DNA of 64,000 nucleotides from Hydnum rufescens UP504 (taxonomy: Eukaryota > Basidiomycota > Agaricomycetes > Cantharellales > Hydnaceae), in the NCBI GenBank assembly GCA_014904985.1, contig MU129061.1, forward strand, positions 90,434 to 154,433. The letters run 5' to 3'. Numbering within the stretch: the first letter of the stretch is position 1; the number at the start of each line of letters is the position of its first letter. The translations under genes were made by a program, and so were the position numbers. Under the pieces are notes generated by a model. That model searched no databases. It was not told where the DNA came from and saw only the letters and a program-made list of their open reading frames with translations. Positions 26,873-64,000 of this stretch are shown piece after piece.

Positions 26873-27110
26873 TGTTCAAGTGGAGGAATGGGAAAGGCCT
26901 ACACAGACACCCAGAGTGGAACTGAGGTAGATTGGCTTAAGTCTTGATGTAGCAAGAGTTATATTGAGTATCTAACTAACCTGAGGTAGATTGGCTTAAG
27001 TCTTGATGTAGCAAGAGTTAAGCCATATCTGCCTCCATCACAACAACCATAAACAGGAAGCAAAAACAACAATAGCACAAAACAACTAATACAAGGGCAC
27101 AACTTCAACA
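26873..27110 (-). repeat. 3' LTR of copia-A
   Basis: A 238 bp LTR. Read on the minus strand it starts TGTTGAAG and ends CTTGAACA, with the canonical TG...CA ends. It contains two copies of a segment TGAGGTAGATTGGCTTAAG.. separated by about 20 bp. The left flank 26868-26872 is GATAT. Confidence 0.9.
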
Positions 27111-27120: not shown

Positions 27121-30100
27121 ACAAAGCAGAGTGAGAAACAAGCCCAAGAAGTGAAAGTACTCGAGAATGGGCTACAGTCTCAAGGGGCTTTGTAAGAACA
27201 TCTGCCCTCATCAAAGAAGTTGAAACATATTCAAGTGAAAATACCTTGTCCTCCACCTGTTCCCGAAGCCAATGGTATTTAGGCAGCAGATGCTGCATTC
27301 GGCTGTGGTGCTCTGGGTTCTTCCCAACTCTGATAGCTGACTGATTGTCAAGCCACAAAGTAGTTGCACCACTTGGAGGATATCCTAGTTCAGACATGAA
27401 ATTCCGAAACCAGACACCATCAGAGCCAGCCTCATTGGCAGCAATGTACTCTGCTTCTGTAGTAGACTTGGCTACAACAGATTGCCTCTTACTGCTCCAG
27501 TTTACCAAGCACTTGCCAATAAAGACAGCATGCCCACTAGTAGAGTGTGCCAAGTCAACATCCCCAGCATAGTCTGCATCAGAATAAATCTGAAGGCAGG
27601 TTGAGTCTTGTCCAGGACCATAGCAAAGCATAAGGTCCTTTGTACCAGCAAGGTACTTGAACACATGCTGAACTTGTTTCCAATGGGCCTGTCCTGGGTT
27701 TGCATTAAACCTACTTAGAGCTCCCACTGCAAAGCTGATGTCTGCACGTGTACCAACTGAAAGGTACATCAGACTGCCTACAGCTGAGAGATAAGGAACA
27801 GACTTCATGTACTCCAAGTCCTCAGGAGTCTGAGGGCAGTCTTCTTTAGTCAATGGACTTGACTTGGCCAGAGGAGTAGACACAGGGCGGGCATCAGCCA
27901 TATTGAAGCGGTCCAGGACATCACCAATGTGCTTCCTCTGGGAGAGATACAACCTCCGGTTAGCCCGGTCTCTGATGATCTCAATCCCTAGAGTGTACGC
28001 AACCGGACCTAAGTCACGGACCTTGTACTCAAGCTTGAGTTCCTCTTTAATGTGCTTTAGAAGTGGGACATTTTTACAGGCAATGATCAAATCATCCACA
28101 TAGGCTGGAATGATGACCTTGACACCGTCTTTAGCCCAGATCCACACACAGTGGTCAGAAGCACATCTTGAAAAACCAAACTTCACAAAGGTAGAGTGCA
28201 GCTTTATATACCACTGCCTTGGACTCTGCTTAAGTCCATACAAGGACTTCTTAAGGTGACAGACAAGGTGTTCTTGACCTGGGGCTGCAAAGCCTTCTGG
28301 CTGAGCCATGTAGATCTCCTCATCCAAGTCACCATTCAAGAATGCAGTGGAGATGTCCATATGGTCAATCTCCATGTCCTCAGCTGCAGCAATAGCCAGC
28401 ACAGTCCGTAAGGAAGCAAACTTGGCAACAGGGGCAAAGGTCTCAGTGTAATCAAGGTGGGGCTTCTGGGAGAAGCCTTTAGCCACCAACCGAGCCTTAT
28501 AACGCTCCACTGAGCCATCAGAGTTCAGCTTGACCTTGTAGACCCATCTAGAACCAATAGCCTTGCGCCCTGGAGGCAGCTCACATAGTTCCCAGGCCCC
28601 ATGTTCCTGGAGTGCATTGTACTCTTGTTCAGTGGCACATGCCATAGCTGAGCATCATCTCTAGTCATGGCTTCATGGTATGACCTTGGCTCAGAGGTAG
28701 AAGTGAGGAAGGCATACTCAATCAGTTCTGAGTGAGAGAGAGCTCTACCAGCATTAGCAGACTCCAGAGCAGCAATGTCAGCTTCAAGAGTTGATTCTGG
28801 AGTCCTTGCACTTTGCCTAGTGTTCCTCTTTTCTTTGGCATGCTGATAGGGGTGAGGGACCACCCACCATTCACGCATGGGACGACTAGAGTGCCCAGAA
28901 CGAGTGACATAAGGCTTAGAAGCACCAGGAGGACCAGTCTCAGAGGAGCCAGAGGGAGGTTCAGGAGTGTCAGTAGCTTCAGAATCAGGTCCAGGTCCAG
29001 GAGCAGGAGAAGAGGAAGATGAAGAAGGTACAGGGTCAGGAGCAGGAGAGTAGGAGACAGGAGGAGCAGGAGAAGGTGAAGGAGCAAAAGAAGATAAATC
29101 AGGAGGGTCCTCAGGATCAGCACTAGAGCCAGATTCAGAGTCAGAGTCATCAGATGGAGTGCTGACAGGCTCAACAGATGGCACTGAGGGGGAAGATGAT
29201 GTAGGAGAAAGATGAGTGCCAGCAGGTTCTCCCACTGAGCCTGGCTGTACTCCAGCCAGAGGCTCATACTTTGGATAATGTGGAAAGTGTTTTGCCCCAG
29301 GCATCTCAGTCTCCACAAAGTGCACATCACAGCGAGATGAATACCTCATTGGTTGTAGGATCCCAGCACTTCCAGCCCTTATAGTCAACAGGGTATCCAA
29401 GGAATATGCACTTCCTGGACTTAGGCTGAAAGGAAGTGCGCTTGTCTTTTTGTACATGGGCATAGGCCCTGCACCCAAAGACACGCAGGTGGGAGACAGA
29501 GGGTTTCTGACCATAGAAGGCTTCAAAGGGAGTCTTCCCAGTGACAGCAGAGGAGGGGGAGCGATTCAGAGTGTGCAGGAAACAGGAGAGAGCTTCACCC
29601 CAGAACTTGGAGGGCAAATGGGAGTCAGAGAGGAGAGAAGCAACACCTTCATCCAAAATGCGATTGGTGCGCTCAGCAACACCATTCTGTTGGGGGGTAG
29701 CCCGAGTGGTGTGCTGTCTCTCAATCCCATGCTCAAGCATGAATGCCTCCCACTGATTAGACATGTACTCACCACCCTTGTCATCCCTGAGAGCCTTGAG
29801 AGCCTTCCCAGTCTGTTTCTCTGCCCAAGATTTAAACTGCTTGAAGGCAGAGAATGCTTCACTCTTTTTATGGAGGAGCCAGACTCGTCGATAGCGGGAA
29901 GCATCATCAATGAAGGTGATCCAGTACCGATAGCCATTAGCTGTAGGCACAGAGATAGGGCCATGGAGATCAGAGTGGACCAGCTCAAGAGGGAGAGAGC
30001 GACGGGAGGACACAGTCTGGGGGAAGGGATGTCTAGTCTGCTTTCCATCCATGCAGGCAGGGCAGACTGGGGCCACAGAGGGAACAGTAGGGAGGACCAG

Positions 30101-32148: not shown

Positions 32149-32379
32149 TGTTCAAGTGGAGGAATGGGAAAGCCTACACAGACACCCAGAGTGGAACTGA
32201 GGTAGATGGCTTAAGCTTGATGTAGCAAGAGTATATGAGCATCTAACTAACTGAGGTAGATTGGCTTAAGCTTGATGTAGCAAGAGTTAAGCCATATCTG
32301 CCTCCATCACAACAACCATAAACAGGAAGCAAAAACAACAATAGCACAAAACAACTAATACAAGGGCACAACTTCAACA
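32149..32379 (-). repeat. 5' LTR of copia-A
   Basis: A 231 bp LTR with TGTTGAAG...TTGAACA ends on the minus strand and the same internal duplication as the 3' LTR. It is 7 bp shorter, mostly because doubled bases are single here (for example GGCC to GCC, TTGG to TGG, CCTG to CTG). It is followed on the right by GGTAC and then by copia-B sequence. Confidence 0.88.
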
Positions 32380-34214: not shown

Positions 34215-36076
34215 CACCTTGGTCAGTCATCTAAGCCTACCTAGTTAGGTACCACTTCCGGGGCAGATAATGGTACCTAAGTAGGTCCCATCACTATTTT
34301 GGCCAAAATGGCCATTTTTATGATTTCACCTCCTGGCCCAGCATTGGCTGAAATGGCTGAAAATTGGCCGAAACTGGGACTTAGAGGATCAAGCCTTAGA
34401 CTTACATGACCTTGAGCTATGTGGGCTTATCAGGGTTAATCACCATTATTATTATTATATTCCCTCTGGTGTCCCATTTATAATTATTTATTTATTATCA
34501 TTATGATCATACATACCTGGGTGGGGGCAGTATTTGTTCAGCAGTCTCATCTTTTGTTCTTATTAACTTATGTACATGTATTTATTTTATTTAAAAATTC
34601 AATAAAAAAAGACCACACCCTAGCAGGTGTGGTACTGTCTGTTGCTTCCTCAGAAGTTCAGATGGGGGGTTGCCCGGTGTTCAGGCATGGGTTCAGGGGA
34701 CACACTGCTGGGGTGTTGGGTGGTATCTATTGCACGAGAATCTAGGAAAATATAATTAAATATAAGTTAAAAATTCAAAAAAAAACATACTTAGTAGCAC
34801 CACACACCCACCCTAAGGGGTGTGTGGTGCTTTCCATTGCTTGATTGGGGTTTGGCCAGCTCATTGGTGGCCATTGGGGGGGGGGGCGAGGATTGGCAAT
34901 TCACGGTTGGGCAGGTCATTTGGACAGGTCATGGGTTGTTGTTGGGGTGGGTCGTCATTTCAGGAGCTTCTAAAATAATCATACACATTAGTAAAAAAAT
35001 TCAAAGTGATGCAAAAGGAGCAGCTTGTGCTGCTCCTTTTGCATCACTGTAGATATAGAAAATAAAATAAAAATACCTTGTAGTACCACACACCTGCTTC
35101 AGCGGGTGTGTGGTACTCCTTTTGGCCCATGGTTGCGGGTTCTTGGATTTGGAGGTGGGGTTTTGTGCATCAAGGGGAGACCTAGAATAATCAATAATAC
35201 GTTAGTTTGAAAAAAAAAAAAAAAACAGAAGCAGCCCCAAAGAGCAGCTACTGCTGCTCTTTGGGCGCCATTGTACAAGAAACTCACTAGCTATTACCAC
35301 ACACCTGTGGCAGCGGGTGTGTGGTACCATATTTCATCTGTCATTGCATACATTGTGAGTGTTCGGGCACTGAGCTCTTGGATCAGGTTGCGGGTTGTGG
35401 GTGGCTGCGCACATCCCTTTTTTGTGCAGGGGGTTTTTGCACTGGGGGACAGATCAATCAGTAAATAACACATTAATTTAGAATTTAAAAAAAAAACAAA
35501 GGAAGCACCAAAAGAGCTGCTCTTGCTGCTCTTTTGGTGCTTTCCTACATCCTGTAATTAAAAACTTAGAAGGTATTACCACACACCTGCCGCAGTGGGT
35601 GTGTGGTATGTGATTTCATTGATCTCGTCAATCGTCATGTACAGGGGGCAGGCACTTGGGCTTGGGTGGCTCATCCATGTGTGGGTTTTCACATAGGGAA
35701 GGGACCTAGAACAATGAATAATAATACACTAGTAAAAAAAAAAGAAAACAGAGGTGCCAAAAGAGCAGCTTCTGCTGCTCTTTTGGCACCAATGGATTAC
35801 TAGTAGATGTACCTAATATTACCACACACCTGCTTTGGCAGGTGTGTGGTTTGTCTGGCACTTGTGTTGTTGCCATTCATGGGTCTCATTTGGTGGGCAG
35901 GTTGTTGTTCTCCTGTGTTTGTTTGTTGGCATTGTGGGTCCTGAGCTCAGATGACAACCTAGAAATAATACATCAGTAACAAAGAAAAAAAGAAAAAGAA
36001 AGGCCACACAAAAGGAGCAGCGTATGCTGCTCCTTTTGCATGGTTGTACTTACCATGGAATTACCACACACCTGCT
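34215..36076 (-). mobile_element. Foldback element E0, left end and left arm only
   Basis: E0 starts CACCTTGGTCAGTCA like E1 and is collinear with the E1 left arm (about 54206-56160) at high identity. On the minus strand it has intron-like cassettes with stem-loops of the GAGCAGC type near 35008-35045, 35233-35268, 35506-35541, 35754-35789 and 36008-36045. Stem-loops of the ACCACACACC type lie near 34798, 35088, 35297, 35579, 35820 and 36064. The array is cut at 36076 by a copia LTR inside the loop of the last stem-loop. The 8 bp left of E0 are GTTCTGCC; no second copy is seen, so the right half lies elsewhere or is lost. Confidence 0.82.
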
Positions 36077-36255
36077 TGTTGAAGTTGTGCCCTTGTATTA
36101 GTTGTTTTGTGCTATTGTTGTTTTTGCTTCCTGTTTATGGTTGTTGTGATGGAGGCAGATATGGCTTAACTCTTGCTACATCAAGACTTAAGCCAATCTA
36201 CCTCAGTTCCACTCTGGGTGTCTGTGTAGGCCTTTCCCATTCCTCCACTTGAACA
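36077..36255 (+). repeat. 5' LTR of copia-C
   Basis: A 179 bp LTR with TGTTGAAG...TTGAACA ends on the plus strand, without the 60 bp duplication. It is followed by the primer site GGTTATGGGCCCA at 36256-36268. It is inserted within a stem-loop of E0 with left flank CTGCT. Confidence 0.9.
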
Positions 36256-38381: not shown

Positions 38382-38559
38382 TGTTCAAGTGGAGGAATGG
38401 GAAAGCCTACACAGACACCCAGAGTGGAACTGAGGTAGATTGGCTTAAGTCTTGATGTAGCAAGAGTTAAGCCATATCTGCCTCCATCACAACAACCATA
38501 AACAGGAAGCAAAAACAACAATAGCACAAAACAACTAATACAAGGGCACAACTTCAACA
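38382..38559 (-). repeat. copia-type 5' LTR, minus orientation
   Basis: A 178 bp LTR with canonical ends and no internal duplication. The 5 bp to its right are GATAT (38560-38564), identical to the 5 bp left of the LTR at 26873. Confidence 0.9.
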
Positions 38560-39159: not shown

Positions 39160-40952
39160 CACCCTGGTCAGCCACTTTTCCATATCATATTAGATATGAT
39201 GAGCATTGCATTTATCATATCTAACTAGATGTTTACACCAGGGGGCCCCTGCAATACAATCAAGGGGCCCAAGCAGCCCAGGGGCCCCTGGGGCCCCTAG
39301 CCATGGACTATTTAGTTATTATTATTATTATTATATACAATGATAGGCTCACCCAGTGGGGCTCACCTAATGAGGCATACTCAGTGTTGCCTGATATGGG
39401 AAGGACAACTGTATTGTGATTACCTAATGAGGTGGACTGTACAATACATGAGTTATAAGTAACTGGTCTAGCATGTATTGTGGTGGAACTGACTTTACCT
39501 CAGTGTTGCCTGATATGGGAAGGACACAAACCAGTCAGCCATAATTGTATATCTAGTTAGGCCCTTTTGCCTTGCTTTTATTCAATCTAAGAGCAGGTTT
39601 TTAGGTGGGGGCCCCTGGGGCCCACTGGGTGATTTCATGGCATGAGACAAGGGGCCCCATGGGGCCCCTTGCTCTGAACTTGCCTTCAGGTATCAGCCCA
39701 TGTATGAGACCAAGAGGTTCAAGGCCTTGTTCAAGACCAGTCAGAATAGGTACTTTCAATCAGGGTATTGGGATAGGTCCTGGCAAGCCCAGGAATGCCC
39801 CTGAATGGGTGAGCAGGCTATACAGACTTATTGGCAATTGGGATTATTTATTTATTACTATTTGTTCTCATTATCAGATTAATCCCCCTGCCTCCCCCAG
39901 ATCATAACACATAATTATTCATTTGTTATTATTATACTATTATACATGTATCATAGAGCTTATCCCCCCTCCCTCCCAGGGTTGCATGTTTATATTTGGC
40001 AGGGTTGCGGGTTTTTGTTTGGCAGGGTCACAGGACTAGTTGGGGGTAGGTGCGAGCAGTGAGGTCAGAAGAATACCTAGAATAGTACATTAGTGGAAAA
40101 AGAAAAGCCATGCAAAAGGAGCAGCCTGTGCTGCTCCTTTTGCACAATCTTACATATAGCCTGAGTACTTACTGTAAAAAATCACCACACCTGCCAAAGC
40201 AGGTGTGGCTCATGTGGGTTCTCAGCATTGCATCATTTCATGTCTTCATTGGGTGGTGGTTTTTGTTATCCAGGTGGGTCTCATTCAGTGCAGGGTTTTG
40301 GGTGGGTCATTGTTTGTGGGTTTGGTGGTCTCCATTTGGCTGTTCGTTCTCATTTGGCAGCCCTTCATTTTGTTGGTGGAGGTTCAGGCAATAACCTAAA
40401 AAAATCAAGTGTTAGTTAGACATTAAAACCAGCACAAAAAGAGCAGCCTTCACTGCTCTTTTTGCACCACTGTACGTATAGACATTAAAAACAAATTCAT
40501 CTTAAATTACCACACACCTGCCACAGCAGGTGTGTGGTTAGGGTGGTCTCTCATTAGGTGGGTGCCTGTTCAGTGCATTATCATTTGGTGGGGCTCATTG
40601 GGTGGGTGTTTGTTTGGTGGGCATTCATTTGGCAGTTGTCTATTCAGTAGATTGTCATTTGGGAGGGGGCTCATGTGTTCATTCGGCAGGTTCTGGTTCA
40701 GGTGATATCCTAGAAAAATCAATAATATGTTAGTTAAAATCATAACCAGTGCAAAAAGAGCAGCATTTGCTGCTCTTTTTGTGCAGTTGCATACACTACT
40801 TACCTTATATATATTACCCCATGCACCCTGCAATGTGTGTGGGGGTTTTTTGTATGGTGGGCCTCTGTTTGGCAGTCTGGGTTTGGCAGGTTTTGGTTGG
40901 GTGGCCATTCACATGTTGGGGTTTGGTCTGGCAGGTGGTGTTTGTATGGTGG
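39160..40952 (-). mobile_element. Foldback element E3, left end and part of left arm
   Basis: Starts CACCCTGGTCAGCCA, the same end type as E2. The subterminal part (39237-39302) holds repeated GGGGCCCC motifs as in E2. Three minus-strand cassettes follow, with GAGCAGC-type stem-loops near 40110-40143, 40432-40467 and 40748-40784, ACCACACACC-type stem-loops near 40190, 40508 and 40820, and acceptor-like CTA and branch-like GTTAGT signals between. It is truncated at 40952 by a gypsy LTR. Confidence 0.78.
39380..39526. repeat. Direct repeat of 28 nt inside E3
   Basis: CTCAGTGTTGCCTGATATGG and the following 8 nt occur at 39380-39407 and again at 39499-39526, 119 bp apart. This block (about 39340-39560) is missing at the corresponding place of E2, so it is probably a separate small insertion in E3. 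Confidence 0.7.
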
Positions 40953-52557: not shown

Positions 52558-54197
52558 AAGATAGGGAGTGAGCCACAGGTTTTGAGTAATTAAAAGTGAC
52601 TACTACAGAGTTTCTGTCTCCTTTGCATCCCACTTTCTATGCACACCCTGTTCATAGCCCTCCCTTTCTTCCATTTGTTCCCTGTGCATCTTCCGAAGGT
52701 GGCCCTTAGCCAGCTGTATCTTACCAAAGTGTTCTGAAGTCAACTGGGTATGCAAATAGCTATCAGTGTCTTTACTAGAAGAAAAAACCTGTTCACAAGG
52801 AACTGATGATGCTTGAATGGCCAAGTAATCCTGTGCCATCAATGTGAGAACCGGGTATTGGCCTGTGTGATCCTAATCCCATGCTTAGTATTAATGAAGT
52901 CTTAAAAGGGGGAGAAGGGCCGAGAGTAAATATACCTTCCACCATTTCAACATGTTGAAGTTAGCCTTGGGTGCAAGAGGATCTACAATATATGCATCCA
53001 ATTATTTGCAAGCCCCAGATTCAGATGCTTCCTTCAATCTTCATGCTGTGACTGCATGGACACAGTGAGCATTTCCGTAACCTGCCTCATATGTACTTGG
53101 GACCGCGGTGTTAGGAATAGCTGCAGTCAGGTGGGCTCACTTTGCATCATATCGTGACTTGTATTTGTCAAACTAATGAGACCAAGTCATCTGTGAGCAC
53201 ACATTACAATAGAGACCCAAAGACTGACCTCAATTCGGAATTTCTCAAGTGCCTGCTCCACCCATATATCTTCCCACTCCTCCTGGATATATAAGTCTTT
53301 CATGCGAGGGTCCAGTACTAGAGGGAATAGCATATTTACATCACCAGTACCAACATTATGACACAGGGATGAACACACATGAACTTGCAACCGCCACAAG
53401 TGAATGGTCCGAGAGGTTGTAATATTTAGTCATGAGCTTCATGCCTGCCATGATTGCAGGTGCAAGTGAAAACCGGGGCTGTCGCGACATGGCCTCCCAC
53501 TGCAAGATAAAATTCTCAAAGGCAATAAGCAACCTCCACATGGTTGGCTCACTCTTGCCTGAGAATTGTTGCTGTACGAGATCAGCCTCCTGAATGAAGG
53601 TGAGAATATTATTTAGTCCATCCAAGTCCTGAGAGATTACAACTCTCGTACTTGAAGGACTTCACTGATTAGATTAGTTAGCTCCCATTCGGTCTCAGTA
53701 AGGGCATATTGAGAGTATTTCAGTGTTCCTTTTTCCGGGGTAGGTACACCTTCTTCTCCATCAGCATAACGAGTGAATCAGATAATTGCCTAAGTGTACT
53801 TAAATTCACTTAGTTCCATACTAAACCCCAAATCCATGGCACTGCATGCTTGCCTTTTTTTGCTCTACTACTCGCTTCAAGGCACTCAGCCAGGACCCCC
53901 AGCATGTGACCACATACGCGATCAGTTCAAGTTCCTTGATTCTGACATCCCGGCAACACTGGTGAAGGAAGTTTTTTGTGAGAGGTGAGCAGCGGACCTC
54001 ATGATCATAACCCTTGGTATTAGTAAGAGCCCAAGAACTATAATAATCTGCATACCTTTATGATAAATGCATGGATTTTGAAGAGTAGGCTCCCAGCGGG
54101 AAATGGATTTGTAGAATCAGCTTCGTCCATGCCAGTAATCAGATTGATGATGTCGCCTTCATCATCTTTGGGATTCCCAATGTCAGTGTTAAACGAG

Positions 54198-54205
54198 GCA
54201 CCAGG
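54198..54205. repeat. Target-site duplication of E1, left copy
   Basis: GCACCAGG here and at 58566-58573. The 8 bp length is typical of hAT insertions, and removing E1 with one copy restores the host transposase frame. Confidence 0.9.
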
Positions 54206-54280
54206 CACCTTGGTCAGTCATCTAAGCCTACCCAGTTAGGTACCACTTCCAGGGCAGATAATGGTACCTAAGTAGGTCCC
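54206..54280 (+). repeat. Left terminal inverted repeat of E1
   Basis: Pairs with 58492-58565. The shared blocks are TGGTCAGTCA, TTAGGTACCACTT, GGGCAGA.AATGGTACCTAA and TAGGTCCC. The same end occurs at 34215 in E0. Confidence 0.88.
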
Positions 54281-54589
54281 ATCACTATTCCAGCCAAAAT
54301 GGCCATTTTTATGATTTCACCTCCTGGCCCAGAATTGGCCAAAATGGCTGAAAATTGGCTGAAAATTGGCTGAAACTGGGACTTAGAGGATCAAGCCTTA
54401 GACTTACATGACCTCTAGCTATGTGGGCTTATCAGGGTTAATCACCATTATTATTATATTCCCTCTGGTGTTCCATTTATAATTATTTATTTATTATCAT
54501 GATCATACATACCCAGGTGGGGGCAGTATTTGTTTGGCAGTCTGATCTTTTGTTCTTATTAACTTATGTACATGTATTTATTTTATTTA

Positions 54590-56730
54590 AAAATTCAATA
54601 AAAAAAAGACCACACCCTAGCAGGTGTGGTACTGTCTGTTGCTTCCTCAGAAGTTCAGATGGGGGGTCATCCAGTGTTCAGACGTGGGTTCAGGGGACAC
54701 ACTGCTGAGGTGTCGGGTGGTATCTATTGCACGAGAATCTAAGAAAATATAATTAAATATAAGTCAAAAATTCAAAAAAAAAAAACATACTTAGTAGCAC
54801 CACACACCCACCCTAAGGGGTGTGTGGTGCTTTCCGTTGCTGGATCAGGGGTTCAGCTGGCTCATTGGTGGCCATTGGGGGGAGTGAGGCTTGGCGGTTC
54901 ACCGTTGGGGGGGTCGTTTGGACGGGTCGTGGGTCGTCATTGGGGTGGGTCATCATTTCGGGAGCTTCTAAAATAATCATACACATTAGTAAAAAAAATT
55001 TGAAGTGATGCAAAAGGAGCAGCTTGTGCTGCTCCTTTTGCATCATTGCAGATACAGAAAATAAAATAAAAATACCTTGTAGTACCACACCCACCGAAGC
55101 AGGTGTGGTACTCATTTTGGCCCATGGTCACGGGTTCTGGGATCGGGTTGTGGGTGGCCGCGCACATTTCTTTTTCATCTTGGAAGTTGGCTGTGTTCTT
55201 GTTGGGTGGGGTTTTGTGCATTGAGGGGAGACCTAGAATAATCAATAATACGTTAGTTTGAAAAAAAAAACAGAAGCAGCACCCAAAGAGCAGCTACTGC
55301 TGCTCTTTGGGTGCCATTGTATGAGAAACTTACTAGCTATTACCACACACCTGCCGCAGTGGGTGTGTGGTACCATATTTCATCCATCATTGTGTACGTT
55401 GCGGGTGTTCGGGCGCTGGGCTCTTGGATTGGGTTGCGGGTTGCGGGTGGCAGGTGGCTGCACACATCCCTTTTTTGTGTGGGGGATTTTCGCGCTGGGG
55501 GACAGATCAATCAGTAAATAACACATTAATTTAAAAATAAAACAAAAAAAAACAAAGGAAGCACCAAAAGAGCAGCTTCTGCTGCTCTTTTGGTGCTTTC
55601 GTACATCCTGTAATTGAAAACCTGCAAGGTATTACCACACACCTGCCGCAGCAGGGGTGTGGTATGCGATTTTGTCAATCGTCATGTTCAGGGGGTGGGC
55701 ACTAGAGGCCTGTGTGGCTGTGCATTGACTGGTGTACTGGGGGCTCATCCATATTGTCATCAGGTGGGTTTTCACGTAGGGAAGGGACCTAGAACAATGA
55801 ATAATAATACATTAGTAAAAAAAAAGAAAACAGAGGTGCCAAAAGAGCAGCTTTTGCTGCTCTTTTGGCACTGGTGGGATTAGACATACCTAATATTACC
55901 ACACACCTGCCAAAGCAGGGTGTGTGGCACATGGTTTCGTTGATTGTCATTTCGGGGGGTGGGCACTCTGGGCTTGGGTGGCTGCACGTACTGGGGGCTC
56001 ATCCATGTCCTTGTCGGGTGGGTTTTCACAGAGGGAAGGAACCTATAAGAATGAATAATAATACCTTAGTAAAAAAAAGAAAACAGGAGTGCCAAAAGAG
56101 CAGCAGAAGCTGCTCTTTTGGCACGGGTGGGATTAGACATACCTAATATTACCACACACCTGCCGAAGTGGGTGTGTGGTTCCATCTGTGCTTTATGGTC
56201 TTGCATCATGGGTTTCTGGTCATTGGTTTCATCTGGTTAGCCGATTGGGGGCAGGTTTCGTTGGTTGGGGTTTTGGCAGGTTATGTTTGTAGCTTTCATT
56301 TTGGTGGGGGCTTTGTTGTGTGTTCAAATGAGAATATAGAATAATAAATAATAAGTTAGTAAAAAAGAAAAAAAAGAAAAGCCATGCAAAAGGAGCAGCA
56401 TATGCTGCTCCTTTTGCGTGGTTGTACAGATGCTTACCTTAAAGCTATCACACACCCACTGAAGTGGGTGTGTGGTTCCGTCTGGGTTTTGGCTGGCCAG
56501 CCATCATTGGCGGGTCGCATCTTCATTTCTGGGGGGGGGTGGGGGGGTGGTTCGTTCAGCAGGTTGTCATTTTGCTGCTTCTGGCCGATAACCTAGAATA
56601 ATAACTAATGTATTAGTTAAGAACTAAAATCAGCGCAAAAAGAGCAGCTTTCGCTGCTCTTTTTGTGCCACAGGAGAGGGGGGGGAACTCACCTTAATTA
56701 GTACCACACACCCGCTGCCGTGGGTGTGTG
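54590..56730 (-). repeat. E1 left arm: minus-oriented exon/intron-like cassettes
   Basis: Reading the minus strand, well-formed intron-like segments are 56692-56593 (GTGAGT...CTAG, with TTAACTAAT as branch site), 56142-56043 (GTATGT...ATAG), 55889-55789 (GTATGTC...CTAG), 55333-55232 (GTAAGT...CTAG) and 55075-54968 (GTATTT...TTTAG). Less regular ones lie near 56340-56450 and 55510-55640. Each holds a GAGCAGC...GCTGCTC stem-loop, and the exon-like part before each donor ends in an ACCACACACC...GGTGTGTGGT stem-loop. Exon-like lengths between clear introns include 153 (55890-56042) and 156 (55076-55231). The distal cassettes (54590-54800) lack the intronic stem-loop. Confidence 0.8.
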
Positions 56731-56780
56731 GTCGTGTGGTTGCCTTTCTGGCTGTTACGGGGTGTGGCTGCATACTTGCA

Positions 56781-56862
56781 ATTCAATGCCGGCAATTGCC
56801 AGTAATCAAGAAGTGCCCAAGTGCTGGCGCTTCTTGATTACTGGCAATTGCCGGCATTGAAT
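56781..56862. repeat. Central palindrome of E1
   Basis: Arms of 35 bp (ATTCAATGCCGGCAATTGCC plus AGTAATCAAGAAG) at 56781-56815 and 56828-56862 with a 12 bp loop; only one mismatch. It separates the two outward-facing cassette arrays. Its core words CAATGCC(A/G)GCAATTGCC and GCCCAAGTGC recur in the centre of E2. Confidence 0.9.
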
Positions 56863-56929
56863 CTGCATCTTTCTTCCCATCTCCATAACCATAACAGGCA
56901 ACTGCCTGGAAAGGCAAGCACATGACCAC

Positions 56930-58113
56930 ACACCTGCCACTGCAGGTGTGTGGTCATAAGGTGAGTTTTTTTCGCTAGTAGATACAACGGCACAAAAAGA
57001 GCAGCGAAAGCTGCTCTTTTTGCACTCCTTTAACTCTTTATACTAACACATCCTGTATTGTTCTATATTGAAGCCTGGGGTCTAAGGCACGATGAAAAGC
57101 CCCAAAATGAGGACCCAGACGGCAGCGAGCCAAACAAAGACATGCAAACGATGCAACACATGCAACGCGCCACACGAAGACGTGCCAAATATGGTTGCCA
57201 CGGTCAGGTTTTGGTCAGGTTTTGCCCAATTTGGGCAAAACCTAAACCTGACCAGGTTCCAAAATCACCCATGAGGGCAAAACCTGAACCTGACCTGAGG
57301 TTCAGTCTCATTCAGGTCAGGTTCAGGTTTAAACCTGGTTTAAACCTGAAACCTGAGGTATGAGGGAAGCCAACATTTTCAGGGGGTCCCTGCTCCTAGT
57401 AAATACAGCCGTGCAAAAAGAGCAGCAAAAGCTGCTCTTTTTGTGCTGCTTTCGAACTTTTTGCTAATGTGTCTTTAATTATTCTAGCTGGGCCTTTGTC
57501 CAACCCATGACATGACCAGAACCCAAACGCCAACGCAACACGCCAATGCGACCCGCCAATGCAACATGCCAATGCGACACAGCAACACGACCCACCAACA
57601 TGACATGACATGCCAACGCGTGAATGATGTGACATGCGGTGCCACGCCAAATGAGGATGCAACCGCGCCCAATGTGGGCCCCAGAAATCACACACCCACC
57701 CTGGCAGGTGTGTGGTCCTATATAAGGTGAGTACCCGTCCCCCCCAGTAGCTACGTACACCCACACAAAAAGAGCAGCCAAAGCTGCTCTTTTTGTGTGG
57801 TTTTTAATTCTTAACTAATTGAAAAGGTTTATCTGTAGGTCTCAACATCCCCTGAAAATAAATACCAATGCAACACCCCTGTAATCCCCCTTATCGACGC
57901 CTGAACAATGGGCACCCGTACGAACTGCTGTATGTACGAGCCAGAGTACATGGCCCCAGTACCCCACACCGCTGCAGCAGGTGTGGGGTACTACAAGGTA
58001 TGTTTTGTTTTTTATTTTTATTTCTTATTCTTGTGGCACAAAAAGAGCAGCATAAGCTGCTCTTTTTGTGCTGCATTACTGTTGTACTAATACTTTATTA
58101 TTTATTTCTCTAG
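56930..58113 (+). repeat. E1 right arm: plus-oriented exon/intron-like cassettes
   Basis: Intron-like segments are 56961-57073 (GTGAGT, TACTAAC at 57041, acceptor GAAG), about 57358-57487 (GTATGA...CTAG), 57727-57838 (GTGAGT, TTAACTAAT, GTAG) and 57998-58113 (GTATGT, TACTAAT, CTAG). Each contains a GAGCAGC-type stem-loop, near 56990, 57412, 57765 and 58036. ACCACACACC-type stem-loops end the preceding exon-like parts at about 56920, 57695 and 57963; the second intron lacks one because a repeat element (57188-57357) occupies its place. The last exon-like part after 58113 runs to the terminal repeat. Confidence 0.8.
57188..57357. mobile_element. Small repeat element inside E1
   Basis: Related to 52431-52557, with repeated CAGGTTTTGG and CTGAACCTGACC words and the near-palindrome GGTTTAAACCTGGTTTAAAC at its end. 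It sits in the exon-like part of a right-arm cassette, replacing the usual stem-loop before the donor. Confidence 0.6.
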
Positions 58114-58491
58114 ATCCTGAACCAGAATCCCCGTGAGCCCCCAAGCAGAACTGGCCGAACAAGATGTGGCAAACAATAACTATGAATGAACCCCCACAAA
58201 TGAAGACTGACCCCATGAGGGAGTGCCCAAAAGGAACCAGCCCCCGACCACACTCACTGCAGAGGGTATGGTGGGTATATGTGGGTGTGTGACCCACATA
58301 AACCATCCCCCCCTGTGGTGGCAGACCCCAGGGGGGTATAGTATAATATGTATATAATAATAGTAATAATAATAGTAATAAATAGTAAACAAATAATAAT
58401 AAATAAGTATATAATCTGGCACAGCCATGGACTGGCCAATAGATGGCCCAAAAACTGAATTGGAACAGCCTGATTTCGGCCGTAAGGTCTG

Positions 58492-58573
58492 GGGGACCTA
58501 TTAGGTACCATTTTCTGCCCCAAAAGTGGTACCTAAATTAGGTCCCCTATGTGACTGACCAGCCTGCACCAGG
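58492..58573 (-). repeat. Right terminal inverted repeat and target duplication of E1
   Basis: The terminal repeat occupies 58492-58565 and the 8 bp duplication GCACCAGG 58566-58573. The reverse complement starts AGGCTGGTCAGTCA and continues with TTTAGGTACCACTT, matching the left end. Confidence 0.88.
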
Positions 58574-59499
58574 AATTGCCATTGAAAGTCCCTTGATGAA
58601 GGCACCTTGAGCAAGGTTGATTGTATGCAACATACAGCTGCCCAAGCAATCAAAACATTAGACAAAGGAATAATGAGTCTAAATGACTCATACCAGACTC
58701 TGTTCTCAAGTGCGTCCCAATCATCAACACTGGCCACAGCGAGGAGTCCCTCCAATTCTTTCATTGCTGCATCATTCGCACTGGCATTATCTGAGGTGAT
58801 ATGGCCAAGCTAGGAAGTATCAAACACTTGTTAGTATCTGCTAAGAGGCAACTCCATTCTCATACCTTCGCTGGCATCATCATATCTTTTGTTAAGTCAA
58901 AGATGTGTGCCACCATATTAGCACCTGAGTGGGATCCAGGGAGTTCGGTAAAGGAAATGAGTTCCGACTGGAGCTCCCAGTCTGCTGTAATGAAATGGAC
59001 TGTAACAGCAATATACGCTTTCATGATGGATGAAGTCCACCCATCAAATGTAAGGGATACCTTCCCTGGAGCAGACTAGACAGGGATTAGAGTTAATGTG
59101 GAAGCAAGAGCAAGGAGTCCATACCTTAATCTGTTCCTTGAGGGACTCCTGGATCTCTCCCGCACGAGCCATAATTGACGACATGATTTTCGTTCATTTT
59201 GGGATATCCTCTCACTTGCTTTCATGGCACTTTGTTTGGTCTGGTACATCATCATTTCATGGAAAGAGCAGCCTGGTCAGCCAATTATCAGTATCTAATT
59301 AGATACTTTGAAGGTTGCATTTATATGCTCTAACTAGATATTAGACCTGGGGGGCCCCCAGGGGCCCCTGCAATTCAGTCGAGGGGGCTGGTCAAGCAGC
59401 CCAGGGGCCCCTGGGGCCCCTAGCCATTAGGATTATTTATTTATTTATTATTTATTTATTATTATTATTATATACAGTAGGCTCGCCCAGTGGGGCTCA

Positions 59500-61310
59500 C
59501 CCATGCACCCAAGAAGAGCAGCCTGTGGCTGCTCTTCTTGCGCACTTGTAGCAAAATGAAAATAACATACCGTAAATGATCACCCCCACCACAGCAGGGG
59601 TGTGGGCTTGCTTGGGGCCCGGCTTATATGCACATGTGGGGTTTGTTTGGGCATTTGTGTGGGGTCTGGTTCACCTGTTTGTGTGTGGCCTTGGTTGCTC
59701 GATTCTTATGGGGTGGGCCTAGCTCATGCGTTTGTGTGGCCCTGTTTGCCCATTTGCATGGGGCAGTTCATGTGGGTTCATGTCCAGGGGGTGGCTATTT
59801 TGTCACCTAAAATAAAAGATGTGTTAGTTAAATGTAATAAAGCGCAAGAAGAGCACCCCATGGCTGCTCTTCTTGTGTGATTGTAACTCTAGAGAGAAAA
59901 ACTTACCTTGAGAGTACCACACCCACCACAGCGGGTGTGGTACTCGCACATTCGCGGTTTTGTTCACGGGGTTTGATTTCACTCGGTAAGTTTGGGGTCA
60001 CGGGGCTTCGGGTCACGGGCTTTGGTTCGTGGGGTTTCAGGTTGTGGGTTTGGTGTCGGGGGTTCGTGTGGGGTTCAAGATCTAGAAAAATAAGGGTGTT
60101 AGTTAAACATTAAATCGCAAGAAGAGCAGCTTACGCTGCTCTTCTTGTGCCACAAAAATAAAATAAAATAACTCATCTTGGAGTACCACACACCCGCCGC
60201 AGCAGGTGTGTGGCTCCCTATTTTCCTGTGTGGCCCAGTTCGTGGGTTCATGTCAGTCATCAGTCGTTTCGCGGTTTCATTCATGGGGGCGGGCCTCTGT
60301 TCAGCGGGTTTGGCATCGCGGACCTCGGTTTGGCAGGTTTGGCGTCACAGGCCTTCGGTCAGCGGGTTGGGCATCTCAGGTTTTGATCCGTGGGTTTGGC
60401 GTTGCGGGGTTCAAGTTCAAGATCTAGAAAAATGAGCAGGTTAGTTAAATATTAAAGCATCGCAAGAAGAGCAGCTTACGCTGCTCTTCTTGCACCACAA
60501 AAATAAAAAAAATAAACAATAAACACTTATCTTGAAGTACCACACACCTGCCGCAGCAGGTGTGTGGTTCCTGGGGCCACTCGTTGGCTTCACATCGTTT
60601 TGTGTCTTTGCTGGTGGGGTGGTCCTTCACTCGCGGGGTTTCGTTTGGCGTGTGGCTTTTGGCGTGCGTTCGTGTCATGGGCTGTTGTTTTGGGGGGTTT
60701 GGGGTTCATTTGGTGGGTCCCTGTTTGGCAAGGGCCCGTTCCGCTCGTTCTTGTTGGGTGGTTCTTCATTTCGTTGGTTGTAGGGCAGGGGATAATCTAG
60801 AGAAAATCTTTACATTAGTGAGAAATTAAAACCAGCACAAAAGGAGCAGCTTTCGCTGCTCTTTTTGCATGGCTGGACATATTGGAGGGGGGGACTCATC
60901 TTATAGAGAACCACACACCCGCTGTAGTGGGTGTGGGGTTCATGCGGCCATTCACTGGGCGCATTGTCGTCTGTCATCATCGTGTTCGTCACGTTCGTCA
61001 CATTCGTCACATTCGTCGTGTTCGTCGTGTCCGTCATGTTCGTCGCGTTGTCACGGTCTTCCTTCTCACATTGTTGCCTGGCGTGGTCCTATTTGGGCCC
61101 TGGCAGGTCGGGCCTTCGTCGTTTGGCTGATCCCTAGGACCAGGTCATGATCTATATGAAAGGTGCTGTGTTAGTAAACAAGTTCAAAGCAGCGCAAAAA
61201 GAGCAGCTTTTGCTGCTCTTTTTGTGCTGTTGTATCTACTACAATAAAAAAAACTCACCTTGTGACCACACACCCACATCAGCGGGTGTGTGGTCATCTT
61301 TCCTTCTTTG
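59500..61310 (-). repeat. E2 left arm: minus-oriented cassettes
   Basis: Six GAGCAGC-type stem-loops lie near 59505, 59862, 60118, 60462, 60836 and 61192. Clear intron-like segments on the minus strand are 59906-59807 (GTAAGT...TTAG) and 61258-61152 (GTGAGT...ATAG). In three further cassettes (donors near 60170, 60530 and 60900) the expected GTGAGT or GTAAGT reads ATGAGT or ATAAGT, so the GT is lost while acceptor and branch-like signals remain. Outer stems differ from E1 (CAAGAAGAGCAGC / GCTGCTCTTCTTG) with matching changes on both sides. Confidence 0.75.
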
Positions 61311-61315
61311 GGTGG

Positions 61316-62033
61316 TTTCCCTGTTAGGTGGTGGTTGCGAGAGAAAGAAACACAACTCAATGCCAGCAATTGCCGGCATCCAAAAAGCGCCCAAGTGCAG
61401 CATCACGACTACAGTATGAATTAGTAGCAAGTGACTAAATGTAGAATAAATACCATATAATTAATATTTGTCAAAAGGAAATAAAGAGGCCATAACAATG
61501 AGTCAGAGTTCACTAAGGCATGCACGTTGCAAAGTGGATTGGGCGATTTCTATGCTTCACAATCGGCTCAAATTTAAATATATTGGTGGAATATATGTAC
61601 CCTACATGGGCGATCAATTATTTCAGGCGCTCCCTCCATTTTTCAATTTTTCATACCTTCAATTCCCTATTTTAGGGAATTGAAGGTACGAAAAATTGAA
61701 AAATGGAGGGAGCGCCCGAAATAATTGATCGCCCATGTAGGGTACATATATTCCACCAATATATTTAAATTTGAGCCAATTGTGAAGCATAGAAATCGCC
61801 CAATCCACTTTGCAATGTGCATGCCTTAGTGAACTCTGACTCATTGTTATGGCCTCTTTATTTCCTTTCGACAAATATTAATTATATGGTATTTATTCTA
61901 CATTTAGTCACTTGCTACTAATTCATACTGTAGTCGTGATGCCGCACTTGGGCGCTTTTTGGATGCCAGCAATTGCCAGCGTTGAGTTGTGTCACACCTT
62001 ACGCAACCACCTAACAAGGAAACTGCCCAAACA
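61316..62033. repeat. Long central palindrome of E2
   Basis: Two arms of about 350 bp are nearly perfect inverted copies around a 5 bp loop centred at 61671. From 61351 to 61991 the pairing has no indels and only scattered mismatches. A 71-codon frame therefore appears once on each strand (61468-61683 plus and 61659-61874 minus); it is a by-product of the symmetry and not clearly a gene. The outermost arms carry the E1 core words (CAATGCCAGCAATTGCC, GCGCCCAAGTGC), so the extra length lies between them. Confidence 0.93.
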
Positions 62034-62039
62034 GGAACT

Positions 62040-63770
62040 AGACAACCACACACCCGCTGTTGCGAGTGTGTGGTCACTAGGTGAGTTTTATTTTGGAATA
62101 GCTACGACAGCACAAAAAGAGCAGTGAAGCTGCTCTTTTTGCGCTGCTTTTACTTCTTAACTGATGCCCTTTTTGTTTAAATCTAGGTCTCATCTTTCAC
62201 ACGAACAAATAGCAACACGAAACCCCCAGTAGCCCCAGGTATCGACACCAGGCCAGTAAGAACAGGGGTGACCCGTATAACGACCCACCCGAACAAGAGT
62301 CCACACCTGAAAAGCAGGATGGTGCGTGGCCATGGAGTGAAATGAGGTACCACACATCCACCATGGCAGGTGTGTGGTACTATATGATTGTTTTTTTTTT
62401 GGTTATTTTTATTTTATTTTGTGGTGCAAGAAGAGCAGTGTTAGCTGCTCTTCTTGCAAAGTTTTAATGATTTAACTAATATTATTTATTTTCTAGATCT
62501 TGAACTCAAACTGGTATGAACCCGCAGAGCCAAACCCCGCGACCCCAAACCTGCCCAACGAACACCCGCCCAACAAACACCCGCACAAACACCCGCCCCA
62601 CGAACACCCGCCCAATGAACACCCACCCAATGAAAACTTGCCCAACGAAAACTTGCCATACGAACACCACCTGCCTGCCAAAACCCGACAATCCGCCAGC
62701 CGAGCATGGGCCAAACGCCTCCTGCCAAACCAAACTGTCCAAACCACACACCTGCTGAAGCGGGTGTGTGGTAATATTAGGTACATCTAATCCCACCGGT
62801 GCCAAAAGAGCAGCAGAAGCTGCTCTTTTGGCACCTCTGTTTTCTTTTTTTTTACTAATGTATTATTATTCATTCTTCTAGGTCTTTTCCCTCCGTGAAG
62901 ACCCACCCAATGAGGACATCGCGTACCATACACCTGCTTCGGCGGGTGTGTGGTACTAGGTGAGTTTTTTTATTATTACGCAGTGTACTGCAATGCCAAA
63001 AGAGTAGCCCTGGCTGCTCTTTTGGTGTTGCCTTCGTTTTTTTTCTTTACTAACATATCATTATTCTAGGTACATTTTACTGTGTGATATCCAACCCGAC
63101 GAATGCACAGATCAGGCCCAGGGCAAAACACAGGACCATGCAGCCACCCATACCCCCGATCCTCGACTTCCGCAACATATACGAGGACAAAACAAATATG
63201 GCGCCACACACCCGCTTCGGTGGGTGTGTGGCAATATTAGGTGAGTTTTCCCCCCTACAGGTGTGCGACGACACCAAAAGAGCAGCACCAGCTGCTCTTT
63301 TGGCATTGCCTTTGTTTTTTTTTTTCTTTACTAACATACTATTATTCTAGGTATCTCCACTGCCCAATATCCAACTCAACAAATGCACAGACCAGGTCCA
63401 AAGCAAAACACAGGACTGCGCCACCCCCCATACCCCCAACCCTTGATTTTCTGCAACAATGAAACACAAAACAAATACGGCACCACACACCCGCCGAAGC
63501 AGGGTGTGTGGCAATATTAGGTTAGTTTGTTTGATTATGAGGTGTACCACAATGCCAAGAGAGCAGCACCTGCTGCTCTTTTGGCATTCCCTTCAAATTT
63601 TTTCCTTTACTAACATATTAATCTTATTTTTACTTATTTAATCTAGGTTATCATACAATAGATACTGCCCATGATGTCCCCCCCCCTTTGAAAACTGGCC
63701 GAACCCCCAATGAGGCAAGGGAAGGTACCACACACCCACTAGGGCAGGTGTGTGGTGCTACTAGGTAGTT
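62040..63770 (+). repeat. E2 right arm: plus-oriented cassettes
   Basis: Intron-like segments are 62081-62186 (GTGAGT...CTAG), one ending at 62496, 62781-62881 (GTACAT, TACTAAT, CTAG), 62960-63069 (GTGAGT, TACTAAC, CTAG), 63241-63350 (GTGAGT, TACTAAC, CTAG) and 63521-63646 (GTTAGT, TACTAAC, CTAG). A further donor-like site is at 63765. Each contains a GAGCAGC-type stem-loop and a T-rich stretch before the branch site. Exon-like lengths are 78, 171, 170 and 118 for the last four; the 171 and 170 nt ones are clear duplicates. All end in CCACACACC...GGTGTGTGG followed by TACTAG or CAATATTAG at the splice donor. Confidence 0.85.
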
Positions 63771-64000
63771 TCCTGTGAATTTTTAAATAAATAAATAAAT
63801 AAATAATAAACAAGTCAATAAGAATGAAACATGGGATTCCCCATCATAAACAATGAGAAAATAATCACTGTGGTTGGCCCGATAAGCCCGTGTAGCCCGC
63901 TGACCCATTCAGGGGCCTTCCCAGGCCTTCCAGCACCTATCCTGATACCCCCCTCTTATATGACTTCTCCCTGGTCATTTTCTAAGTTCAGAGCCAGGGG

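Follow-up and report, generated by a model that had tools for sequence, protein, structure and literature searches.

The window analysed here is a 64,000-nucleotide stretch of contig MU129061.1 of Hydnum rufescens UP504 (assembly GCA_014904985.1, positions 90,434 to 154,433 of the forward strand), and it contains an element, designated E1, which is very probably a member of a transposon family whose interior is laid out as tandem exon/intron-like cassettes. On balance, the overall explanation that we favour is that E1 is a decayed transposon copy carrying a bidirectional, intron-rich non-coding RNA gene. The two outward-facing cassette arrays around a palindrome, which an initial annotation of this DNA had recognised in a non-autonomous transposon, recur with the same polarity in other copies (72/72 cassettes outward), and six sites without the element are present in the genome.

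The left terminus of E1 at 54206 is exact, since many of the 40 scored genomic copies start matching there, while its right end lies at 58566, not 58565, once the terminal G of the family is counted. The sequence GCACCAGG is indeed present on both flanks of 54206..58565, as expected from the 8 bp target duplication originally proposed, but a 7 bp duplication (CACCAGG) with the terminal G assigned to the element is the better reading for E1. Its terminal inverted repeats (TIRs) measure 15 bp, with weaker similarity extending over ~70 bp, and the term 'foldback' had to be abandoned for an element with such short repeats. The boundary features are as follows.

54206..58566, no strand: E1, non-autonomous transposon, decayed, without central promoter-like region (ends compared with other copies; empty sites).
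54199..54205, no strand: target duplication CACCAGG, left copy; the 8-bp version begins at 54198 (flank comparison).
58567..58573, no strand: target duplication CACCAGG, right copy (flank comparison).
54206..54220, plus strand: left TIR CACCTTGGTCAGTCA (end comparison, exact-terminus count).
58552..58566, minus strand: right TIR, inward reading CAGGCTGGTCAGTCA (end comparison).
54236..54271, no strand: left subterminal palindrome (palindrome/hairpin search).
58501..58536, no strand: right subterminal palindrome (palindrome/hairpin search).

When the flanks of E1 are joined without the element, they match six other places in the genome over 235-240 of 240 bases (93-98%), and three further places at 76-78%. 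A hAT C-terminal match occurs near E1 (52768-52881) and, as with E1, such a match is found ~1.2 kb away at four of the six empty sites; the hAT sequence is therefore part of the target. Because of these empty sites and the nearby hAT matches, E1 is seen to interrupt one copy of a repeated gene by a precise insertion, the gene being probably a hAT gene. A wrong assembly join, which had been named as a possible artefact, is unlikely, since seven other copies share the same plan and the six empty sites exist.

As had been proposed, E1 is not a single odd locus: its exact 17-base left terminus occurs 318 times in the genome (151 + 167), against none in the reversed control. The left 133 bases used as a genome query yielded 560 first-look candidates, the 40 scored matching at 96-100%, and the right end yielded 662, the 40 scored matching at 95-100%. 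Both ends are present in the eight copies that were compared (E1, L065, L066, L067, L068, L070, L072 and L074). All eight start with CACCT and finish with AGCCTG, giving CA..TG ends throughout. Elements of the family measure 4.4-5.4 kb, with several internal donor/acceptor pairs. The target duplication is 7 bp long in three of them (E1, L065, L067), 8 bp in three (L066, L068, L072) and absent in two (L070, which has an N gap, and L074). No long open reading frame belonging to the element was found in the copies read, and among the matches listed there is no KDZ or hAT match inside E1, which agrees with its earlier description as transposase-free. Defined ends, inverted repeats, target duplications in 6/8 copies and a high copy number are the marks of a non-autonomous cut-and-paste transposon, and E1 is a decayed member of a large family of this kind.

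Each cassette consists, in order, of an A/C-rich exon, an exon hairpin, a donor of the form AAG|GTRAGT, an intron hairpin, a TACTAAC-type branch site and a TTCTAG-type acceptor. A collection made by splice pattern comprised 192 cassettes (135 with the exon hairpin), 159 of them distinct and 72 non-redundant. The predicted intron has a median length of 107 nt among the 159 distinct cassettes, with median distances of 38 nt from donor to hairpin core, 24 from core to branch site and 27 from branch site to acceptor, and the exon-hairpin motif ends 8-14 nt upstream of the donor in 44/47. The exons are A/C-rich, T-poor and non-coding; coding exons were rejected, as stop codons are as frequent as in composition shuffles (four copies, six arms) and the exons do not have lengths divisible by three. 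A covariance model, R1, built from 50 of the 72 non-redundant cassettes, finds eight minus-strand cassettes in the left arm of E1 and four plus-strand cassettes in the right arm, two of which belonged to its training set.

54733..54850, minus strand: left-arm cassette, outermost, without intron hairpin (R1, 59.8 bits).
54962..55131, minus strand: left-arm cassette (R1).
55227..55393, minus strand: left-arm cassette (R1; in the training set as L005).
55512..55685, minus strand: left-arm cassette (R1).
55783..55950, minus strand: left-arm cassette (R1).
56037..56202, minus strand: left-arm cassette (R1).
56330..56498, minus strand: left-arm cassette (R1).
56587..56754, minus strand: left-arm cassette, innermost, predicted intron 56593-56692 (R1; fold z -7.05).
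56903..57072, plus strand: right-arm cassette, innermost (R1).
57322..57493, plus strand: right-arm cassette (R1).
57665..57844, plus strand: right-arm cassette, predicted intron 57727-57838 (R1; in the training set as L035).
57939..58119, plus strand: right-arm cassette, outermost, predicted intron 57998-58113 (R1).

The polarity of the arrays is strict. In the six copies whose centre is known (E1, L065, L066, L067, L072, L074), all 72 cassettes counted point outward, the count being of model-spanning R1 matches with 52 bits or more; L068-L071 and L073 were also searched with R1 and were excluded from the count as interrupted or without a clear centre. The search with the terminal repeats that had been suggested earlier thus provided full-length copies, in which the left-end arm carries 7-9 cassettes and the other arm 3-5 (same six copies). 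Splice signals around the intron hairpins follow the same direction: a strict donor and acceptor flank 87/152 hairpins in the outward orientation and 0/152 in the inward one, the donor alone being found 95 times outward vs 2 inward and the acceptor alone 132 vs 4. These 152 hairpins come from 58 end loci, after removal of the two belonging to E1, of duplicates and of hairpins at most 110 nt from a sequence end. With shuffled flanks (164 hairpins from all 60 loci, 20 times) the strict pair appeared in 0.18%. In E1 alone, 7/11 intron hairpins tested have the strict pair outward and none inward. In 54001-59000 there are 28 hairpins, whereas three mononucleotide shuffles gave 0, 1 and 0. Donor, branch site and acceptor, all of canonical form, share one orientation, as in an array of spliceosomal introns.

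At least one intron hairpin lies within the first ~1.5 kb in 56/60 end loci; this is the outcome of the test, set earlier, of whether other copies lack the arrays. In the remaining four end loci (L009, L022, L025, L029), the sequence there matches other dispersed repeats or contains hairpins that have degraded, and on this ground they were rejected as candidates for autonomous copies. Single hairpins were also considered as solo introns; five places were read, and 5/5 match array loci of the family.

The intron hairpin, with the core GAGCAGC-loop-GCTGCTC, is the most constrained piece of the cassette, both in sequence and in pairing, while drift is seen in the exons. With four added A/T pairs, there are 3490 occurrences of the core in the genome and none in the control. 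Both hairpins were recovered by RNAalifold; the written structure has 32 pairs, of which 18 show double changes, and 92.3% of its 1582 cells are paired. None of 500 shuffles reaches the observed covariation on any of five measures, with the caveat that related sequences can exceed shuffles, and slid partners pair at 32-51%. Two cassettes gave fold z values of -9.1 and -7.1. The last-cassette hairpin is kept in 27/28 right-end loci. In pairwise comparisons of these loci, which are not independent of each other, transversions were absent from the intron stem (0/11,232), compared with 10.4% in the remainder of the intron, 7.6% and 3.3% in the exons, 2.7% in the exon hairpin and 2.1% in splice signals; for transitions the figures were 3.2% (intron stem), 5.7% (splice signals) and 6-15% (exons, exon hairpin and intron). 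For 14 right-end loci, using pairs less than 20% diverged, stem transversions were 39/5537 vs 3004/61,440 outside the stem. Mismatches in the intron stem are more often G-U than A-C (61 vs 30, p = 0.0015), and GNRA-type loops were found 42 times outward vs once inward among 128; both observations point to RNA. The same core occurs in five viral contigs, with one palindrome each, and in at least 119 bacterial stretches, two palindromes being present in 2 of the 80 listed; these occurrences are probably terminator-like, and presumably reflect convergence.

At the centre of seven copies and of E2, a related element described below, is a palindrome around CCTTCAATTCCCTATTTAGGGAATTGAAGG, which in intact copies is ~750 bp long and promoter-like. 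Its two arms are 0.92-0.95 alike in L066, L067, L074 and E2, and 0.47-0.87 in L065, L068, L070 and L072; between copies, right arms are 0.71-0.86 alike, rising to 0.96-0.97 among L065, L068 and L070. Across six copies (12 arms; L068 and L070 left out), distances from the centre are 117-129 nt for the motif CCAATCC, 208-219 nt for a TATA-like motif and 392-427 nt, once 508, for the first donor. With these CCAAT-like and TATA-like motifs at fixed distances, the palindrome would act as two back-to-back promoters.

E1 has a deletion in this region: its centre lacks 564 bp relative to L066, with a 7-bp overlap at the junction.

56781..56862, no strand: E1 central palindrome, remnant of a larger one, with the deletion junction at 56825-56831 (palindrome and copy comparison).

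Because ~564 bp of the centre are lost, E1 is, judged from this comparison, a decayed derivative and its palindrome a deletion remnant, so the earlier label 'complete' does not hold. Moreover, 141/171 C>T and G>A differences from L066 to E1 fall at CpG, and the observed/expected CpG ratio is 0.41 in E1, 0.45-0.60 in L065, L068, L070 and L072, and 0.9-1.06 in L066, L067, L074 and L208. Such a contrast, with some copies strongly CpG-decayed and others not at all, is as expected from cytosine methylation of silenced copies. E1 itself looks like an old, promoter-less copy.

Three other elements of the window, E0, E2 and E3, had been assigned to the family of E1. All are relatives with the same cargo, but E2 and E3 have different ends, starting with CAGCCTGGTCAGCCA and CACCCTGGTCAGCCA respectively, and form a second subfamily.

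34215..36115, no strand: E0, a left end with its left array, both of E1 type, truncated by another repeat (84% to E1; cassettes all minus).
39160..40867, no strand: E3, partial copy with the E2-type end CACCCTGGTCAGCCA and minus-strand cassettes (R1; end comparison).
59269..64000, no strand: E2, second-subfamily copy with end CAGCCTGGTCAGCCA and arrays on both sides of a palindrome, running to the contig end (R1; end comparison).
61173..62162, no strand: E2 central palindrome, self-complementary at 90%, which holds promoter-like motifs and, for each array, its first cassette (self-comparison, arm comparison).

This subfamily shares with the E1 type the TIR core TGGTCAGYCA, the cassettes and the central palindrome. 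A genome search with the E2-type end brought up 336 first-look candidates, of which the 40 scored are 90-100% alike and begin at the position corresponding to 59269 or at most three bases before. A 2-kb piece (L208) lying downstream of one E2-type end carries seven cassettes, all facing the same way, and a stem, GACCAGC/GCTGGTC, in which the change is compensated. One cargo travels behind two kinds of ends, because E2, E3 and L208 carry the cassettes with E2-type ends. The repeat that cuts off E0 is one copy of a 130-bp sequence present in at least four places (26981-27110, 32250-32379, 36077-36206, 38430-38559), three of them identical, and is probably the long terminal repeat end of nearby Copia-type elements, an RVT_2 match lying at 27122-28654.

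We propose that an intact copy is a symmetrical pair of RNA genes. The central palindrome, acting as two promoters, would drive two divergent non-coding transcripts, each running outward through 3-9 tandem cassettes, and the introns would be excised by the spliceosome. Following the logic of a host gene, the exons would be spacers and the intron hairpin a working module for a protein or RNA partner, its repeated copies serving the element, with the engagement or diversion of host RNA factors as the likeliest means. That the cargo is such a selfish RNA gene, with palindrome-driven, divergent, multiply spliced non-coding RNAs, a hairpin selected as RNA and a contribution to the element through RNA or splicing and not protein, has in our estimate a little under an even chance; the module function of the hairpin is put forward more tentatively.

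Several observations weigh against this proposal. The cassettes of the alignment were picked by splice pattern, and splice-site frequencies in it are conditioned accordingly; the centre motifs were chosen after seeing the alignment, and in both L074 arms (2/12) TCAATCC replaces CCAATCC. Processed or intron-less copies spanning an exon junction were absent among the candidates scored (40/401 and 40/125). No known small-RNA family was matched at the gathering score, weak sub-threshold matches alone appearing, and the GNRA loops may have been inherited from one ancestor. Exon-hairpin mismatches are without polarity (G-U 35, A-C 34), and in close copies C/T and A/G differences of the stem are equal (115 and 113), again without polarity at the RNA level. 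Lastly, no transposase with CASSYTGGTCAGYCA ends was found among the end loci or by comparing left ends with KDZ places.

A role of the hairpins in cis, spacing or shielding splice sites such that all introns are recognised and the element gains by being a spliced, well-expressed transcript, would account for the fixed 38, 24 and 27 nt geometry and for the near-constant placing of the exon-hairpin motif before the donor (44/47). We regard it as an unlikely rival, because the donor-accessibility test failed: the idea that hairpins keep the 5' splice site open had to be rejected, predicted donor accessibility being no higher with the hairpins than with them scrambled (0.358 vs 0.350; higher in 36/72). 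The gain was hardly seen at the branch site (43/72) and slight at the acceptor (48/72), the donor is paired in the fold of L208:509-671, and structure alone leaves the conserved letters unexplained. Neutral cargo, that is, a captured multi-intron sequence which underwent tandem and inverted duplication and recent copying and has no present function, is about as improbable. Tandem and inverted repeats do arise readily in non-autonomous elements, and E1 itself is decayed, with CpG-centred differences from L066 (141/171), but exon divergence far exceeds that of hairpins and splice signals, compensatory changes occur, and the whole plan is kept by two subfamilies with different ends. Least probable is that the palindromes work as DNA (protein sites or cruciforms), with symmetry kept by template switching or conversion and splice-like signals hitch-hiking: the unpolarised exon-hairpin mismatches, the equal C/T and A/G stem differences and the greater likeness of centre arms within a copy (0.92-0.95, four copies) than between most copies (0.71-0.86) agree with it, but donor, branch site and acceptor keep a strict polarity while nearby intron letters change, and G-U exceeds A-C in the intron stem.

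As to what moves the element, no KDZ or hAT gene was seen inside any copy. KDZ genes are very numerous in the genome (584 first-look candidates, at least 154 matches), and hAT C-terminal matches number 90. Among the end loci, KDZ protein matches occur only in the flanks of L013 and L043, where element copies lie in or directly beside KDZ transposase genes. When 125 left ends were compared with 150 KDZ places, four faced inward within 15 kb, all more than 8 kb off, and ten outward. PMC12730594 describes Kyakuja elements as having CA..TG ends, 7 bp duplications and no TIRs, and hAT7 as a hAT group with 7 bp duplications; by their sequence, the ends of E1 fit Kyakuja (KDZ) or hAT7 in part. E1 resembles Kyakuja in its CA..TG ends, in the 7 bp duplications (3/8 copies) and in the abundance of KDZ genes in the host genome, but has 15-bp TIRs, belongs to a family that mixes 7 and 8 bp duplications and encodes no transposase. 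Membership in hAT, as first assigned, is doubtful. The 8-bp duplications in 3/8 copies, the 90 hAT matches and the 7 bp duplications described for hAT7 are in its favour; against this, no hAT copy was shown to share the ends of E1, the neighbouring hAT sequence belongs to the target, and CA..TG ends together with 7 bp duplications are described for Kyakuja in the same source. The transposase would be supplied from elsewhere in the genome, the first candidate being an enzyme of Kyakuja/KDZ type.

Non-autonomous transposons are usually seen as ends plus filler or captured genes. The interior of the E1 family is an organised, polar and constrained exon/intron-like array kept by two subfamilies. 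If transcribed and spliced, it would offer a natural system in which to study how fungal splicing, non-coding transcription and the silencing of transposons affect one another, and it might supply ready-made introns. The vehicle is of a known kind, and the cargo is one that we could match to nothing described: no transposon made of intron cassettes appeared in the titles and abstracts that searches of an open-access library brought up (subscription journals, preprints and Repbase being outside this scope). In Foldback/Galileo-type elements, the long TIRs are themselves built of tandem repeats in inverted arrays. E1 shares the inverted tandem-repeat arrays, but its TIRs are 15 bp, not long, and its arrays are internal and carry splice signals. 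Small nucleolar RNA (snoRNA) host genes have drifting non-coding exons and one conserved structured piece per intron. Introners, according to PMC9860276, are single introns inserted in host genes and bear DNA-transposon hallmarks; E1 is similar in combining such hallmarks with spliceosomal intron features, but it is an element of 4-5 kb that has exons of its own and holds many predicted introns, and as a whole it is not one intron. The likeness in organisation to snoRNA host genes and intron-borne hairpin RNAs (fungal hairpin RNAs being treated in PMC9757828) lies in the drifting non-coding exons and the structured intron piece. The E1 family differs from these in matching no known snoRNA or microRNA family at the gathering score, and in that its hairpins are near-identical, the gene is mobile and a hairpin is present in the exon as well.

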